NCBI GenBank assembly: GCA_024641965.1
Contig: JAHECC010000004.1
Location: 1,315-65,314 of the forward strand
DNA length: 64,000 nucleotides
Direction of reading: 5' to 3'
Source: Rubrivivax sp.
GTDB taxonomy: Bacteria > Pseudomonadota > Gammaproteobacteria > Burkholderiales > Burkholderiaceae_C
Part shown: positions 49,501 through 55,478 of the stretch, piece by piece
Position numbering within the stretch: the stretch's first letter is position 1
How the letters are laid out: each line of letters begins with the position of its first letter
Position numbers and translations under genes: made by a program
Notes under the pieces: model-generated
Told to the model about the DNA's origin: nothing
Databases searched by the model: none
The model's input: the letters and a program-made list of their open reading frames with translations, nothing else

Positions 49501-50226
49501 TTGAACCCAGACCTTCACATCGCCGTTCTCGACGACGAAGTCGAAATCACCCAGCTGTTGGCCGGCTATCTGCAGAGCCACGGCTACCGGGTCACGCAGT
49601 TGCATGACGGGCGCTCGCTGATGCGCACCATGCAGGCCGATCCGCCAGCCTTGGTGCTGCTCGACCTGGGCTTGCCGGGCGAAGACGGCTTCAGCATCGC
49701 GCGCCAGCTGCGCGAACACTGGCAATGTGGCCTGGTCATCGTCAGCGGCCGCGGCGACGCGGTGGACAAGGTGGTCGGCCTGGAAGTCGGCGCCGACGAT
49801 TACGTCACCAAACCCTTCGACCTGCGCGAACTGCTGGCGCGCATCAAGGCCGTGCTGCGCCGCATGGTGCCGGCAGCAGGTCCGGCCAAGGCACAGCCAT
49901 CCGCGCCTGGGCCCATGCACTTTGCCGGCTGGGCGCTGGACGCTGCGGCGCGCCGGCTGGTGAATCCGCAAGGGCAGGACGTGAGCCTGACGAGCGGCGA
50001 ATTCGATCTGCTGCACACCTTCGTGCAGAACGCCGGGCGCGTGCTGTCGCGCGATTTCCTGCTCGAGCGCACGCGCGGGCGCGAAGCCGGGCCCTACGAC
50101 CGCACCATCGACGTGCAGGTGGGACGGCTGCGCAAGAAACTCGAGGTCTCGCCCGGCGATCCGCGGATCATCAAGTCGGTACGCGGCGCCGGCTACATCC
50201 TGGTGCCCGCCGTCGTCGTCGACTAA
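49501..50226 (+). CDS. OmpR-family response regulator (TTG start)
   Basis: IAVLDDEVEITQLLAGYL, LLDLGLPGEDGFSIARQLR, GADDYVTKPFDLRELLARI, winged-helix C-terminus VGRLRKKLEVSPGDPRIIKSVRGAGYIL. Confidence 0.92.
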   Translation: MNPDLHIAVLDDEVEITQLLAGYLQSHGYRVTQLHDGRSLMRTMQADPPALVLLDLGLPGEDGFSIARQLREHWQCGLVIVSGRGDAVDKVVGLEVGADDYVTKPFDLRELLARIKAVLRRMVPAAGPAKAQPSAPGPMHFAGWALDAAARRLVNPQGQDVSLTSGEFDLLHTFVQNAGRVLSRDFLLERTRGREAGPYDRTIDVQVGRLRKKLEVSPGDPRIIKSVRGAGYILVPAVVVD

Positions 50227-50300: not shown

Positions 50301-52433
50301 AGCGTCAGTACCTACGCGCGGCCGGGCGGTCCTGACATGGGCATCGCGGCGCCCCTCACGCCGCAGCGGCCGGGCTCGGGCTCTTCGGAAATCGCGCTGC
50401 TGCAGGAATTGTTTCGCGCCCACCCGGACGTGCTGTTGCTGGTCGATCCGGGCGGTCGCATCGTGCGTGCCAATCCGGCTGCCGTGGCCATGCTGGGCTA
50501 CGCTGCCGAGGAACTGCTCGGCTTGCTGGTGGACACGCTGGTGCCGGCGACGGCACGCGCGCAGCACGCCGCTTTGCGCGAGCGCTATGGCCAGGACCCG
50601 CTACCGCGCCCGATGGGCACGCGCATGGGCCTGACGGCGCTGCGCAAGGACGGCAGCGAGGTGAATGTCGAGATCGCACTGAGCCCGCTTCAGGGCCTTG
50701 ACCAGCGCTACGTCGTGGCCGCACTTCGGGACATCAGCGCCTACCCGCGCGTGCAGAAGGTGCTGCAGCGGGCAGGCTACAGCGAGCACCTGGCGCAACT
50801 CGGACGCGTGGCGGTGGATGCACGTGAACCGCAGGTGGTGCTCGACCAGGTGTCGGCCATTGCGACTGGGGCGCTGCAGGCCGACACGGCGCTGATCTAC
50901 CTGCTCGAAAGCAATCTGAGCGATTTCCGGCTCGCCAGCGGCGCCGGCCTGGTGGCCGGCAGCGCCATCGGTTCGAAGCTGCCCAACCGACCCGATACCT
51001 TGCCTGGGTTCGTGCTGCACGAAGGCCATGCGGTGAAGGTGCCTGACCTGCGCCACGAAGAACGCTTCAGCTTCCCCGCCGCCTACGTCGAGGCCGGGCT
51101 GACGGTGGCGCTGGCCGTGCCGCTGTCCGATCGCGGCCGCACCATCGGCGCCATCGTCGTGTGCGGTCGTGCATCGCTGCACTTCGGCGACGATGAACTG
51201 CACTTCGTCGAGTCGCTTTGCAATCTGCTCGCCACCTGCTTGCAGCGCGCGCAGTCCGAAGACGCACTGAAACACGCGCAGCGTCTCGAGACCGTGGGGC
51301 AGCTCACCGGCGGCATCGCCCATGACTTCAACAACCTGCTGACCATCATCCAGGGCAGCCTGCAGGTGCTCGAGGAAATACCGTCGCTGGCCAACGACAC
51401 CTATGGCCAACAGCTCGTCGGCGCGGCGTTGCGCGCATCGCGGCGCGGTGCGGAGCTGACCGGCAAATTGCTGGCCTTCTCGCGCCGCCAGGTGCTGCAG
51501 CCCGACGCCGTGGACACCAGTGCGATGCTGCATTCACTGGCCGACATGCTGCGCCGCACGCTCGACCAGAGCATCCGCATCCAGGTGGATGCGCCAGCGG
51601 CCTGCCCGCCGGTGCAGGCCGATCCGGGCCAGCTCGAAGCGGCGCTGCTGAACATTGCCGTGAACGCGCGCGATGCCATGCTGGACGGCGGCACGCTGCG
51701 CTTTCGGGCGCGGGTCTGCAACCACCTGCCGGCCGAGGTCCGCCACAACCTCGACGACAAGAGCGCCGACGACGCGTCGTTCGTTGCCATCAGCGTGACA
51801 GACAGCGGCAGCGGCATGACCGAGGTGGTCAAGCGACGCGCCTTCGAACCCTTCTTCACCACCAAGGAAGCCGGCCGCGGCACCGGCCTGGGACTGAGCA
51901 CGGTGTATGGTTTCGTCACGCAGTCGAGCGGCGGCGTCACGGTGGACAGCACCCTGGGCATCGGCACGACGATGACGCTGTACCTGCCTAGACCCTTGGA
52001 CAGGACAGCGAGCGGCGATGCAGACGATGCCTCGAGCCATGCGCTGCCGAAGGGCCTGCGCGTGCTGCTGGTCGAAGACGACAGTGATGTGCGCCAGGTG
52101 GTACGGGCGTTCCTGGACGGTCTGGGCTGCCGTGTCACGCTGGCTTCGAGCGGCGAACAGGCCCTGCTGGCGGTGAGCGGCCATGGACCCTTCGACCTGT
52201 TGCTCAGCGACATTGCCCTGGGCGCCGGCATGCGCGGCACCGAACTCGCAAGGCGCGCACGACATAGCCAACCGACGTTGGCGGTATTGCTGATGTCGGG
52301 TTATGCGTCGGAACTGCTGAAAGCGGATCGCGATGCACCACCCGGTTGGCTGCAATTGCGCAAGCCCTTCACCCGCGCCGAACTCGCCGCCGCCATGCTG
52401 CGCCAGTTCACCCGGCGCGAGCCTTCGGGCTGA
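50295..52433 (+). CDS. hybrid sensor histidine kinase (PAS-GAF-HisKA-HATPase-REC)
   Basis: PAS LLVDPGGRIVRANPAAVAMLGY, H-box LTGGIAHDFNNLLTIIQGSL, GRGTGLGLSTVYGFV, REC LLVEDDSDVRQVVRAFL. Confidence 0.92.
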   Translation: MGSVSTYARPGGPDMGIAAPLTPQRPGSGSSEIALLQELFRAHPDVLLLVDPGGRIVRANPAAVAMLGYAAEELLGLLVDTLVPATARAQHAALRERYGQDPLPRPMGTRMGLTALRKDGSEVNVEIALSPLQGLDQRYVVAALRDISAYPRVQKVLQRAGYSEHLAQLGRVAVDAREPQVVLDQVSAIATGALQADTALIYLLESNLSDFRLASGAGLVAGSAIGSKLPNRPDTLPGFVLHEGHAVKVPDLRHEERFSFPAAYVEAGLTVALAVPLSDRGRTIGAIVVCGRASLHFGDDELHFVESLCNLLATCLQRAQSEDALKHAQRLETVGQLTGGIAHDFNNLLTIIQGSLQVLEEIPSLANDTYGQQLVGAALRASRRGAELTGKLLAFSRRQVLQPDAVDTSAMLHSLADMLRRTLDQSIRIQVDAPAACPPVQADPGQLEAALLNIAVNARDAMLDGGTLRFRARVCNHLPAEVRHNLDDKSADDASFVAISVTDSGSGMTEVVKRRAFEPFFTTKEAGRGTGLGLSTVYGFVTQSSGGVTVDSTLGIGTTMTLYLPRPLDRTASGDADDASSHALPKGLRVLLVEDDSDVRQVVRAFLDGLGCRVTLASSGEQALLAVSGHGPFDLLLSDIALGAGMRGTELARRARHSQPTLAVLLMSGYASELLKADRDAPPGWLQLRKPFTRAELAAAMLRQFTRREPSG

Positions 52434-52443
52434 AACGCGAGAT

Positions 52444-53232
52444 CTACTGCAACACCGTCGCCGCCGGCGCCAGGCTGCGATGCACGAACTCGGCCAACGC
52501 ACCGACGTGCGGAATCTGGATGTCGCGCCGGCCCTTTTCGGCGAAGTGGATCAGCTGGTTGCGCGCCAGACGTGACAGGGCCCGACTCACCGTTTCCAGC
52601 GTCATGCCCAGATAGTTGCCGATCTCGGCGCGCGTCATGCGCAGCGTGATCTGGTCGGTGCGCATGCCGCGCCGCGCCAGCGATTCTGCCCAGTAGCGCA
52701 GGAAGTCAGCCACGCGGGCGTCGGCGCTCAATGTGCACACCGACATCAGTGAATCACGGTCGCGCGCGATTTCGCGGCTCATCGCCACATGCAGCAGGTT
52801 CATCAGTTCCGGCTGGCGCGCGCAGGCGTCGAGCACCGTGTCGTAGCGCAGGATCCAGACCTCGCCGGTGTCCATGGCCACGGCGTCACAGGTGTAGCGG
52901 CTGTTGGCAATGCCGTCAAAACCCAGCCAATCGCCGCGGAACTTCAGGCCGACCACCTGCTCCCGACCATCCAGCGACAGGTTGACGACCTTGAAGAAGC
53001 CGGAGTTCAACACGTACAGGTTGCCGAAGTGCTCGCCGGTCTGATAGATCAGGTCACCGGCATGCACCATACGGCGCGGCGGCGCGAACAAGCCGTTCAG
53101 CAATTGCAGGTTGTTGGCGATGGCCTGGCTCGCACGCTGGCACATGGCCTCGTCGATGCTGAGCTTTGCAGCCGCTGCGGAGATGTTGTGTGCGACTTCG
53201 GTGCTTGTGTCGATGTCGGTTGTGCTCAGCAT
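52444..53232 (-). CDS. Crp/Fnr family transcriptional regulator
   Basis: cNMP-binding fold, MTRAEIGNYLGMTLETVSRALSRLARNQLIHF FNR-type recognition helix (E..SR). Confidence 0.93.
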   Translation of the reverse strand: MLSTTDIDTSTEVAHNISAAAAKLSIDEAMCQRASQAIANNLQLLNGLFAPPRRMVHAGDLIYQTGEHFGNLYVLNSGFFKVVNLSLDGREQVVGLKFRGDWLGFDGIANSRYTCDAVAMDTGEVWILRYDTVLDACARQPELMNLLHVAMSREIARDRDSLMSVCTLSADARVADFLRYWAESLARRGMRTDQITLRMTRAEIGNYLGMTLETVSRALSRLARNQLIHFAEKGRRDIQIPHVGALAEFVHRSLAPAATVLQ

Positions 53233-53383
53233 TCTTGTCTCCTCGGCGGCCTTGGCCGGTTGTTTGTTGCGTTCATGCTAGGAAGGCCTCGAAAACACCG
53301 TGTCAATGTGCAAGCTCATTCGGTAACGTTGTGTGAACACCGCGTATCCGGCGAGCGTCCGGGCCTGGGCTGGCTGCTCTGAA

Positions 53384-53397
53384 TTGACGACAGTCAA
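53384..53397. promoter_or_regulatory. FNR-type box TTGAC-GACA-GTCAA
   Basis: Perfect dyad half sites with 4-nt spacer in the divergent fnr-like / carbamoyltransferase-like intergenic region. Confidence 0.6.
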
Positions 53398-53460
53398 GGC
53401 TCCCCGGACACGCCTCGTTAGCCTGTCCGTTCCCGCAACGGCGGCATCGCATACCCTCCC

Positions 53461-53964
53461 ATGGCCCCATTCCTCAGGCATCGCCACCTCCCGGCTTGCA
53501 GCCAGTTGACGCCGGACGAGACCACTGAGCTGCTGGGAATGGTGCGAGACCTGCAGCGCGCCGGGGCAGGAGGTGGCCTGCAACCGCTGTTGCGTGGCAA
53601 GAATCTGGCACTGCTGTGCAGCGACGACAAGAAACCCGAGGCCCAGCTGTTCCGGCGTGCCGCCCTCGAACTGGGCGCGCATGTCGCGCATGTGGCCATC
53701 AGCCTGGACGAAAGCAGCCCGGACGCGGATGTGGTGCATACGGCACGGCTGCTCGGTCGCCTGTACGACGCGGTGGAATGCCAGGGCATGCCCGGCCCGT
53801 TGGTGCAGCGTGTGGCCGCAGAAACCGACATCGCGGTCTATGACGGGCTTGCCGCAGCCACGCATCCGACCGCGTCGCTGGCCTGGCAACTCGGCGACGA
53901 GGGTCATTTCAGCGACAACCGGCGCTACCTGCTGCAGACCTGTCTGCTCAGCACGATGAGCTGA
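53461..53964 (+). CDS. stand-alone ornithine/aspartate carbamoyltransferase N-terminal-domain-like protein
   Basis: LTPDETTELLGMVRDLQ, LLRGKNLALLCSDDKKPEAQLFRRAALELGAHV, DAVECQGMPGPLVQRVAAETDIAVYDGLAAATHPTASLAWQLGD resemble OTCase N-domain; no C-domain. Confidence 0.75.
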   Translation: MAPFLRHRHLPACSQLTPDETTELLGMVRDLQRAGAGGGLQPLLRGKNLALLCSDDKKPEAQLFRRAALELGAHVAHVAISLDESSPDADVVHTARLLGRLYDAVECQGMPGPLVQRVAAETDIAVYDGLAAATHPTASLAWQLGDEGHFSDNRRYLLQTCLLSTMS

Positions 53965-54122
53965 GCGCGCTGCCCGCCGCCCCTGGCCGCAGCGCCAAGC
54001 ATCGGAGCGGTTTTCAGGGCAGGTAGGAAGCCTTGCGCTCGATCAAGGTCCACCCCGCCCGCGGATTGAAGAATGCCTCATAACAGCGTGGTCTCGAGGC
54101 CGTGCGACAGAGGACGAAGAGC

Positions 54123-55478
54123 ATGCAACTGCGCTTTCTCGGCGGCGCCGGCAGCGTCACCGGAACGAAAGTCTTGGTCGAACGCGATGGCCACCGACTG
54201 CTGATAGATTGCGGCCTGTTCCAGGGCCTCAAGCAACTGCGGTTGCACAACTGGTCGGCCATGCCGGTGCCGAGCGCCTCGATCGATGCAGTGCTGCTGA
54301 CGCATGCCCATATCGACCACAGCGGTTTCCTGCCGCGCCTGGTCGAACTGGGTTTCAAGGGTCCGGTCTACGCCACGCAAGCCACGATCGACCTGTGTCA
54401 GCTGCTGTTGCCCGAGGCCGGCCAGTTGCTGACGGCGGAGGCCGAGTTCGCCAACCAACTGGGCTACACCAAGCATGCGCCCGCGCTGCCGCTGTACAGC
54501 GAGCAAAGCGCTCGCCTGGCGCTGGAGCAGTTTCGGGTGTGCGAGTTCGATCAGCTGTTCGAGCCGGCGCCAGGATTCAGTTGCCGTTTGGCGCCGGCTG
54601 GGCATGTGCTCGGCGCGGCCAGCGTGCACCTGCGCTGCGGCGAACACAGCCTGCTGTTCTCAAGCGACCTGGGCGGACAGGACGATCTCGTGATGAAGGC
54701 CCCTGTGCCTCCCGAGGCCGCCGACTTCGTGCTGCTCGAATCGACCTATGGCAACCAGCGCCACCGCAGTACGGAGGCACTGACGCGCCTGGCCAAGACC
54801 ATCAACCGCACCTGCGCACGCGGCGGCGTGGTCGTCGTGCCGGCCTATGCGGCCGGGCGCGCACAACTGCTGCTGCATGCCATCCGCCAACTGAAGAACA
54901 CGGCGCGCATCCCCGACGTGCCGGTGTACCTGAACAGCCCGATCGCCGCCGCCGCCACGCGGCTGTATCAGCAACACGCCGAACTGCACCGCCTGTCGGC
55001 CGATGCGTGCGCCGCGATGCTTGATGACGTGAACGTTGCGCATACCGAAGCCGAAGCGATGGCGCTGAACCATCTGGACACGCCCGGTATTCTTGTCGCC
55101 ACCGAAGGCGTGGCCAATGGCGGGCGCGTCGCGCACCACCTGAAGGCCTATGCCGTCGATGCACGCCATGCAATTGCCTTCACCGCACACCAGCCGGCGG
55201 GCACGCGCGGTGCGGCCATGTTGGCCGGCATACCGAGGGTGAAGATCCACGGCGAATGGATCGACATACGGGCCGAGGTAATTTCACTGCCGGGCCTGTC
55301 GGGCCACGCCGACCACCAGGGCCTGCTCGACTGGATCGAGGCGCTGCCGCGTGCACCGCGGCATGTCTACCTGATGCATGGCGAACCGGAGGCCGCCGAC
55401 AGCCTGCGCCAAGCCATTACCGAGCGGCAGGGCTGGCCCTGCTCGGTGCCCGAGTACCTCGAGTTGTTGTACCTCTGA
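54123..55478 (+). CDS. MBL-fold metallohydrolase, beta-CASP RNA-processing type
   Basis: LTHAHIDHSGFLPRL, AGHVLGAASVHL, LLESTYGNQRH, PGLSGHADHQGLLDWIEALP, YLMHGEPEAADSL. Confidence 0.93.
   Translation: MQLRFLGGAGSVTGTKVLVERDGHRLLIDCGLFQGLKQLRLHNWSAMPVPSASIDAVLLTHAHIDHSGFLPRLVELGFKGPVYATQATIDLCQLLLPEAGQLLTAEAEFANQLGYTKHAPALPLYSEQSARLALEQFRVCEFDQLFEPAPGFSCRLAPAGHVLGAASVHLRCGEHSLLFSSDLGGQDDLVMKAPVPPEAADFVLLESTYGNQRHRSTEALTRLAKTINRTCARGGVVVVPAYAAGRAQLLLHAIRQLKNTARIPDVPVYLNSPIAAAATRLYQQHAELHRLSADACAAMLDDVNVAHTEAEAMALNHLDTPGILVATEGVANGGRVAHHLKAYAVDARHAIAFTAHQPAGTRGAAMLAGIPRVKIHGEWIDIRAEVISLPGLSGHADHQGLLDWIEALPRAPRHVYLMHGEPEAADSLRQAITERQGWPCSVPEYLELLYL

Follow-up and report, generated by a model that had tools for sequence, protein, structure and literature searches.

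The question raised by this locus is what a solitary carbamoyltransferase domain is doing beside an FNR-type regulator. The window, by which we mean the whole 64,000-nucleotide stretch of Rubrivivax DNA analysed, contains an open reading frame that begins with the ATG at 53461, ends with the TGA at 53962-53964, and encodes 167 aa. The Pfam profile OTCace_N (PF02729) matches residues 8-141 with 37.4 bits (E 3.4e-9), above its curated cut-off of 29.9 bits. An AlphaFold model made from a 30-member alignment (pLDDT 88.9, pTM 0.84) displays the carbamoyl-phosphate-binding N-domain fold of ornithine carbamoyltransferase (OTCase), and a Foldseek search of the PDB with this model ranks OTCases at the top, led by 9y83_A from Burkholderia xenovorans (TMq 0.72, 36% identity). 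In contrast to this agreement with the domain profile, the NCBIfam ornithine carbamoyltransferase models give 68 bits at most, far below their cut-offs of 280-559. The first-pass annotation had read the frame as a stand-alone carbamoyltransferase N-domain; it is indeed a real stand-alone OTCace_N domain, hereafter the pseudo-OTCase. Relatives occur in dozens of species, which puts the observation far beyond chance.

The same genome encodes three other OTCace_N proteins, all full length, which by sequence are ArgF, PyrB, and a YgeW-like knotted carbamoyltransferase. Searches of this genome for arginine deiminase (arcA) and the catabolic OTCase ArcB (arcB) found neither, in keeping with the earlier view that this is not an ordinary arginine enzyme. 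Features of the locus are collected in the table.

Table. Positions of the pseudo-OTCase gene, its motifs, its promoter elements and its conserved neighbours in the window
Feature	Position	Strand	Basis
Pseudo-OTCase: stand-alone OTCace_N domain plus OTCase C-terminal helix, 167 aa	53461..53964	+	Pfam PF02729, AlphaFold, Foldseek
Residues 150-166, helix homologous to the C-terminal helix of OTCase; Arg319 is represented by R154 (60/74)	53908..53958	+	
DDKKPE, residues 55-60, acidic replacement of the STRTR phosphate-binding loop	53623..53640	+	column counts, 74 members
R96, equivalent of OTCase Arg106, retained	53746..53748	+	64/74 members
H135, equivalent of OTCase His133, retained; HPTQ changed to HPTA	53863..53865	+	H in 64/74 members; Q136 lost
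FNR-type box TTGACGACAGTCAA, 77 bp before the ATG	53384..53397	+	perfect TTGAYN4RTCAA in 57/75 relatives
-10 element TAGCCT, spaced 21 bp downstream of the box as in class II FNR promoters	53419..53424	+	TANNNT pattern
GTRWC-like direct repeats every 10-11 bp (GTAAC..GTGAA..GTATC..)	53323..53359	.	3 or more copies in 45/75 relatives
Partner FNR-type regulator FNRp: cNMP-binding fold, Crp HTH, ETVSR motif, no N-terminal 4Fe-4S cysteines	52444..53232	-	adjacent in 67/76 loci
Hybrid histidine kinase (PAS, GAF, HisKA, HATPase, REC), conserved neighbour	50337..52433	+	cluster in 25/30 loci
OmpR-type response regulator, conserved neighbour	49501..50226	+	cluster in 17/30 loci

Can this protein be an enzyme? 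The SxRT(R) phosphate-binding motif is replaced by acidic and small residues, reading S-D-D-K-K-P-E in the window protein; HPTQ reads HPTA; and the HCLP motif and SMG loop are absent, along with the second-substrate C-domain that carries D231. Relatives show the same trend. Among 74 members, the S55 column holds D in 29, T56 holds D in 26, R57 holds E or D in 30, T58 holds D or E in 29, and R59 is replaced by A in 45. These five residues, together with Q136, D231, and C273, are gone from almost all members; the H and P of HPxQ are mostly retained, and the Q is lost. No OTC reaction is therefore expected. The first-pass annotation had noted the replaced STRTR loop and the altered HPxQ motif and had called the protein probably non-catalytic, and on each point the residues agree with it. 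One relative (L008, from genome G034) has a long Ser/Asp/Asn-rich low-complexity insert in place of the STRTR loop.

Some of the pocket nevertheless persists. Three residues that in Escherichia coli OTCase touch the carbamoyl group and phosphate (PMC7004355) still have equivalents in most of the 74 members: Arg106 in 64, His133 in 64, and Arg319 in 60. LYDAV (residues 101-105) is invariant in the alignment (A1), and the flanking TARMLGRLYDAVECQ stretch nearly so. The three retained residues would suit a protein that binds a small molecule (carbamoyl phosphate, ornithine, or another low-oxygen metabolite) and serves as a sensor or buffer independent of FNRp. We regard this alternative as quite unlikely. 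Classical carbamoyl-phosphate binding is improbable because the phosphate loop has become acidic and Q136 is lost. The pocket may instead be residual or repurposed, or the acidic loop may form internal pairs with the arginines that remain.

The C-domain has been lost in an unusual manner. The last 17 residues of the protein match the ArcB C-terminal helix end to end in a profile alignment, and this placement is the best position across the entire 332-column ArcB profile; its score was reached by 3 of 1000 column shuffles, any register counted. Taken alone the match is weak (hhalign E-value 0.037), and it convinces only in combination with the shuffle test and a series of graded intermediates. 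These (alignment A3) descend from the intact 332 aa through 311 (G748), 271-246 (271 and 250 among them), 234, and 182 to 167 aa, and all size grades finish with the same helix. The 311-aa copy reads STRER and HGLS and has a 21-residue C-domain deletion; a 268-aa intermediate is predicted to fold with half a C-domain (pLDDT 81.5). The retained helix therefore indicates that the C-domain was excised from inside. A pure N-terminal truncation of OTCase was rejected on account of the helix match. Thus, the first-pass annotation was right that the ornithine-binding C-domain is gone, but the protein is more than an N-domain.

What was the ancestor? In a tree of N-domains, in which many forks are unresolved, ArcB forms one clade (SH-aLRT 100), with the longer eroded forms next to it and most stand-alone forms further out. 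Two genomes are informative; their arc genes were identified by reading open frames and by tblastn against other arc loci. Genome G590 has the same FNRp and box, followed by arcD, arcA, arcB, arcC, and a universal stress protein gene. G748 combines the 311-aa decaying arcB, next to FNRp, with an intact arcDABC that lies elsewhere and carries the same box. The G590 arrangement is the probable ancestral state. A third genome, G573 (locus L153, 1156-2484), has an ArcA-like frame beside FNRp, in the place of the pseudo-OTCase. Its counterparts of the ArcA motifs, which we take to be FTRD, MHLDTVF, and HCMSC, read CMRE, EVLERVF, and HALCC, so that an arginine deiminase next to this regulator has apparently become a pseudo-enzyme as well. 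These sequences are most simply explained if FNRp formerly controlled arcDABC and if the pathway then disappeared while a catalytically dead part of ArcB was retained.

The pseudo-OTCase shares with ArcB about 30-38% identity, the fold of the N-domain, and the C-terminal helix, together with the FNR-linked place that arcDABC occupies in G590. It differs in lacking the STRTR, HPxQ, SMG, and HCLP motifs and the C-domain. Its loci also differ from those of ArcB: arcA, arcC, and arcD are absent, and the promoter and neighbours are different.

The family comprises 76 distinct proteins that have neither STRTR nor HCLP, from about 30 genera of Burkholderiaceae, and was compared with 34 true ArcBs, each with both motifs. 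Most degenerate members are 150-184 aa long, with a minority of 230-271 aa that have a shrunken C-domain. One member (L088) belongs to another family of the order. The copy on contig L045, which is assigned to Methylotenera, shares 94.5% identity with the one in Roseateles puraquae (L050); this contig is probably mis-binned.

One alternative is that the gene is a decaying arcB relic, of which the promoter and 5' part survive without serving any function. The family is clearly derived by erosion from arcB, and the G748 copy is in mid-decay. However, the frames are open in all 76 divergent members, and dN/dS is well under 1 in 13 of 13 close pairs (0.085-0.49 by NG86; 0.031-0.37 by YN00). Codon changes show a third-position excess. 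Specific residues are invariant, promoter geometry is conserved, and co-occurrence with the regulator is complete. To judge from these codon comparisons, the gene is evolving under purifying selection, and the relic reading, which we rate as very improbable, is already largely refuted. The first-pass annotation had itself proposed that decay would be betrayed by relatives encoding a full-length OTCase here, or by a frame free of purifying selection. The second objection fails (dN/dS 0.03-0.5). The first is borne out to the letter by the full-length arcB of G590, which however reveals ancestry rather than decay. In the evolutionary sense of the word, a pseudo-enzyme derives from an active enzyme whose catalytic residues it has lost, and it is retained under purifying selection; both hallmarks are seen here.

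Expression is predicted to be tied to oxygen regulation. A perfect TTGAYN4RTCAA lies at most 260 bp upstream of 57 of the 75 degenerate genes, but of no dinucleotide-resampled control and 0 of 34 ArcB genes. TANNNT follows 21-22 bp downstream in 56 of these 57 boxes, where 0.5 would be expected. The strict combination of box and -10 pattern, at class II distance, occurs twice in the whole genome of the window, once at the pseudo-OTCase gene. In Roseateles and Pelomonas (L037, L040-L047, L050, L052, L055), the box begins 48-49 bp before the ATG, with its centre at -41.5; transcription should therefore start at the start codon, and a leaderless transcript is predicted. The GTRWC-like repeat array, situated between the FNRp gene and the FNR box and seen neither in shuffles nor at ArcB genes, is a probable candidate for the site of the linked OmpR-type response regulator.

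The FNRp gene divergently adjoins 67 of the 76 degenerate genes (64 found by script, and L065, L118, and L128 by tblastn), but none of the 34 true ArcB genes. In its product, ETVSR supplies the E..SR recognition helix with which the FNR/FixK family reads TTGAT half-sites. The N-terminal CxxC..C and central Cys that hold the 4Fe-4S cluster in canonical FNR are not found; the conserved cysteines of FNRp (C115, C137, and C166) occupy other positions. Two further FNR proteins in the genome both have the N-terminal cysteine motif, and these canonical Fe-S proteins could also act on the box, which counts against control by FNRp specifically. Nevertheless, promoter and neighbourhood together lend very strong support to the earlier suggestion of Fnr-type control.

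Presence of the pseudo-OTCase follows presence of the regulator. Carriers make up 65 of the 401 genomes surveyed in the family, spread over about 30 genera. FNRp is encoded in 65/65 carriers versus 19/336 non-carriers (p=4e-58) and, within the window's own genus, in 9/9 carriers versus 4/72 others (p 3e-9), although these p-values overstate the number of events because related species are not independent. Carriers nest within FNRp genomes with no exception. The converse does not hold: about 18 of 84 FNRp genomes have no detected pseudo-OTCase, so the regulator is not strictly dependent on it. Inspection of 19 such genomes added one diverged member (G815), and found the intact arc operon in G590 and the arcA-like sequence in G573; the remainder had none nearby. 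In 10 of 71 survey loci the pseudo-OTCase is not adjacent to the FNR gene, and conserved adjacency elsewhere could partly reflect joint transfer of a cassette. Downstream in the window (54102-55478) lies a gene for a beta-CASP metallo-beta-lactamase with an RMMBL domain (RNase-like), a neighbour in several relatives; the nearest NCBIfam model to its product is type VII Cas14, at 309 bits, far below the cut-off for that model.

This distribution bears on another alternative, in which the protein modulates a genuine OTCase. OTCases work as catalytic trimers whose active sites form where monomers meet (PMC3474736), and the N-domain, source of the trimer contacts, is well kept in fold. The pseudo-OTCase might form mixed trimers with ArgF or ArcB, and so inhibit or tune them at low oxygen. 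ArgF is indeed present in the genome of the window. However, the protein is much nearer to ArcB than to ArgF, and ArcB (E <= 1e-20) was found in 9 of 65 carriers among the matches listed, and not in this genome. Heteromers with ArcB were given less weight, as most carriers, this genome among them, lack ArcB. With a distribution that tracks the FNR regulator, modulation of OTCase seems unlikely.

Instead, we consider it probable that the protein is a retained, FNR-driven pseudo-enzyme derived from arcB, devoid of carbamoyltransferase activity, that serves the FNRp circuit as a partner, feedback, or ligand-sensing protein. According to this proposal, the ancestor was the arcB gene of an FNR-driven arcDABC operon. 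The sequences show that arcD, arcA, and arcC have disappeared and that the arcB product no longer has the STRTR loop, the second-substrate residues, or the C-domain. Still in place are its N-domain fold and C-terminal helix and three residues of the pocket, as well as the promoter with its FNR box and the adjacent regulator gene. Low oxygen would turn on the gene when an FNR-type protein, one of the three in the genome, binds the box. The product, presumably without carbamoyltransferase activity, would serve the adjoining circuit of hybrid kinase, response regulator, and Fe-S-less FNR, most likely by binding the regulator or the kinase, or by giving feedback or sensing a ligand on behalf of either. 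Its action would lie outside arginine fermentation and be comparable to that of FixT in the FixLJ-FixK cascade.

Genomic sequence speaks directly to the origin and the promoter; the biochemical role, including the regulatory or scaffold function suggested by the first-pass annotation, is deduced, and most of the uncertainty lies in this last step. A role inside the FNRp circuit is most likely because presence of the protein depends on FNRp, not on ArcB. Likewise, since many Burkholderiales keep a catalytically dead protein beside one low-oxygen regulator, its function is most likely regulatory rather than enzymatic. A narrower version is offered tentatively: the pseudo-OTCase may be an obligate partner of an oxygen-circuit transcription factor, in which the OTCase N-domain, derived from an arcB formerly controlled by this very regulator, senses a metabolite through what is left of the pocket (Arg106/His133/Arg319) and modulates FNRp or its kinase.

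Two known systems provide useful comparisons. FixT is a small protein that inhibits the FixL kinase in the FixLJ-FixK system of Caulobacter (PMC7078487). The likeness, which is hypothetical, consists of a small protein beside a two-component system and a FixK/FNR-type regulator, with proposed feedback on the circuit. However, FixT is a receiver-domain Fe-S protein, whereas the pseudo-OTCase has an OTCase N-domain and no receiver-domain fold. The second comparison is the non-catalytic dihydroorotase partner of some bacterial ATCases (PMC4581275), likewise a dead enzyme of carbamoyl metabolism retained for a non-catalytic role. That protein is a structural partner of ATCase, whereas the pseudo-OTCase is linked to a transcription regulator.

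Two loci on Variovorax megaplasmids (L142 and L143) have universal stress proteins, BON domain proteins, phbB, and alcohol dehydrogenases around the pseudo-OTCase gene, and the L143 island additionally has phosphoketolase, hemN, and cco genes. Both are reminiscent of low-oxygen survival loci. Taken together, their stress-protein, phbB, alcohol dehydrogenase, hemN, and cco genes recall the low-oxygen-activated (lxa) locus of Burkholderia cenocepacia, a likeness in the general theme of low-oxygen survival. The lxa literature searched mentions the FNR-type BCAM0049 and arcB in general; no stand-alone OTCace_N or OTCase-like lxa gene was found in it.

The family has apparently gone undescribed so far: a literature search that covered few subscription papers found no account of an OTCase pseudo-enzyme, or of an FNR-linked or truncated OTCase of this family. 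Plasmid records label relatives ornithine carbamoyltransferase (WP_319362088.1, QRF62904.1), and the present analysis corrects this public annotation. It also flags an uncharacterised circuit with an Fe-S-less FNR in common bacteria of soil and water, including Variovorax, Roseateles, Pelomonas, and Aquabacterium. The passage from enzyme to non-enzyme is unusually well resolved here, from the intact arcDABC operon through copies in mid-decay to a 167-aa core, all with the same FNR box. If the pseudo-OTCase is truly an obligate partner of its regulator, then the circuit would have recruited one of its own target genes as a component. This raises the testable question of how the metabolic target gene of a regulator joins the regulatory circuit itself.
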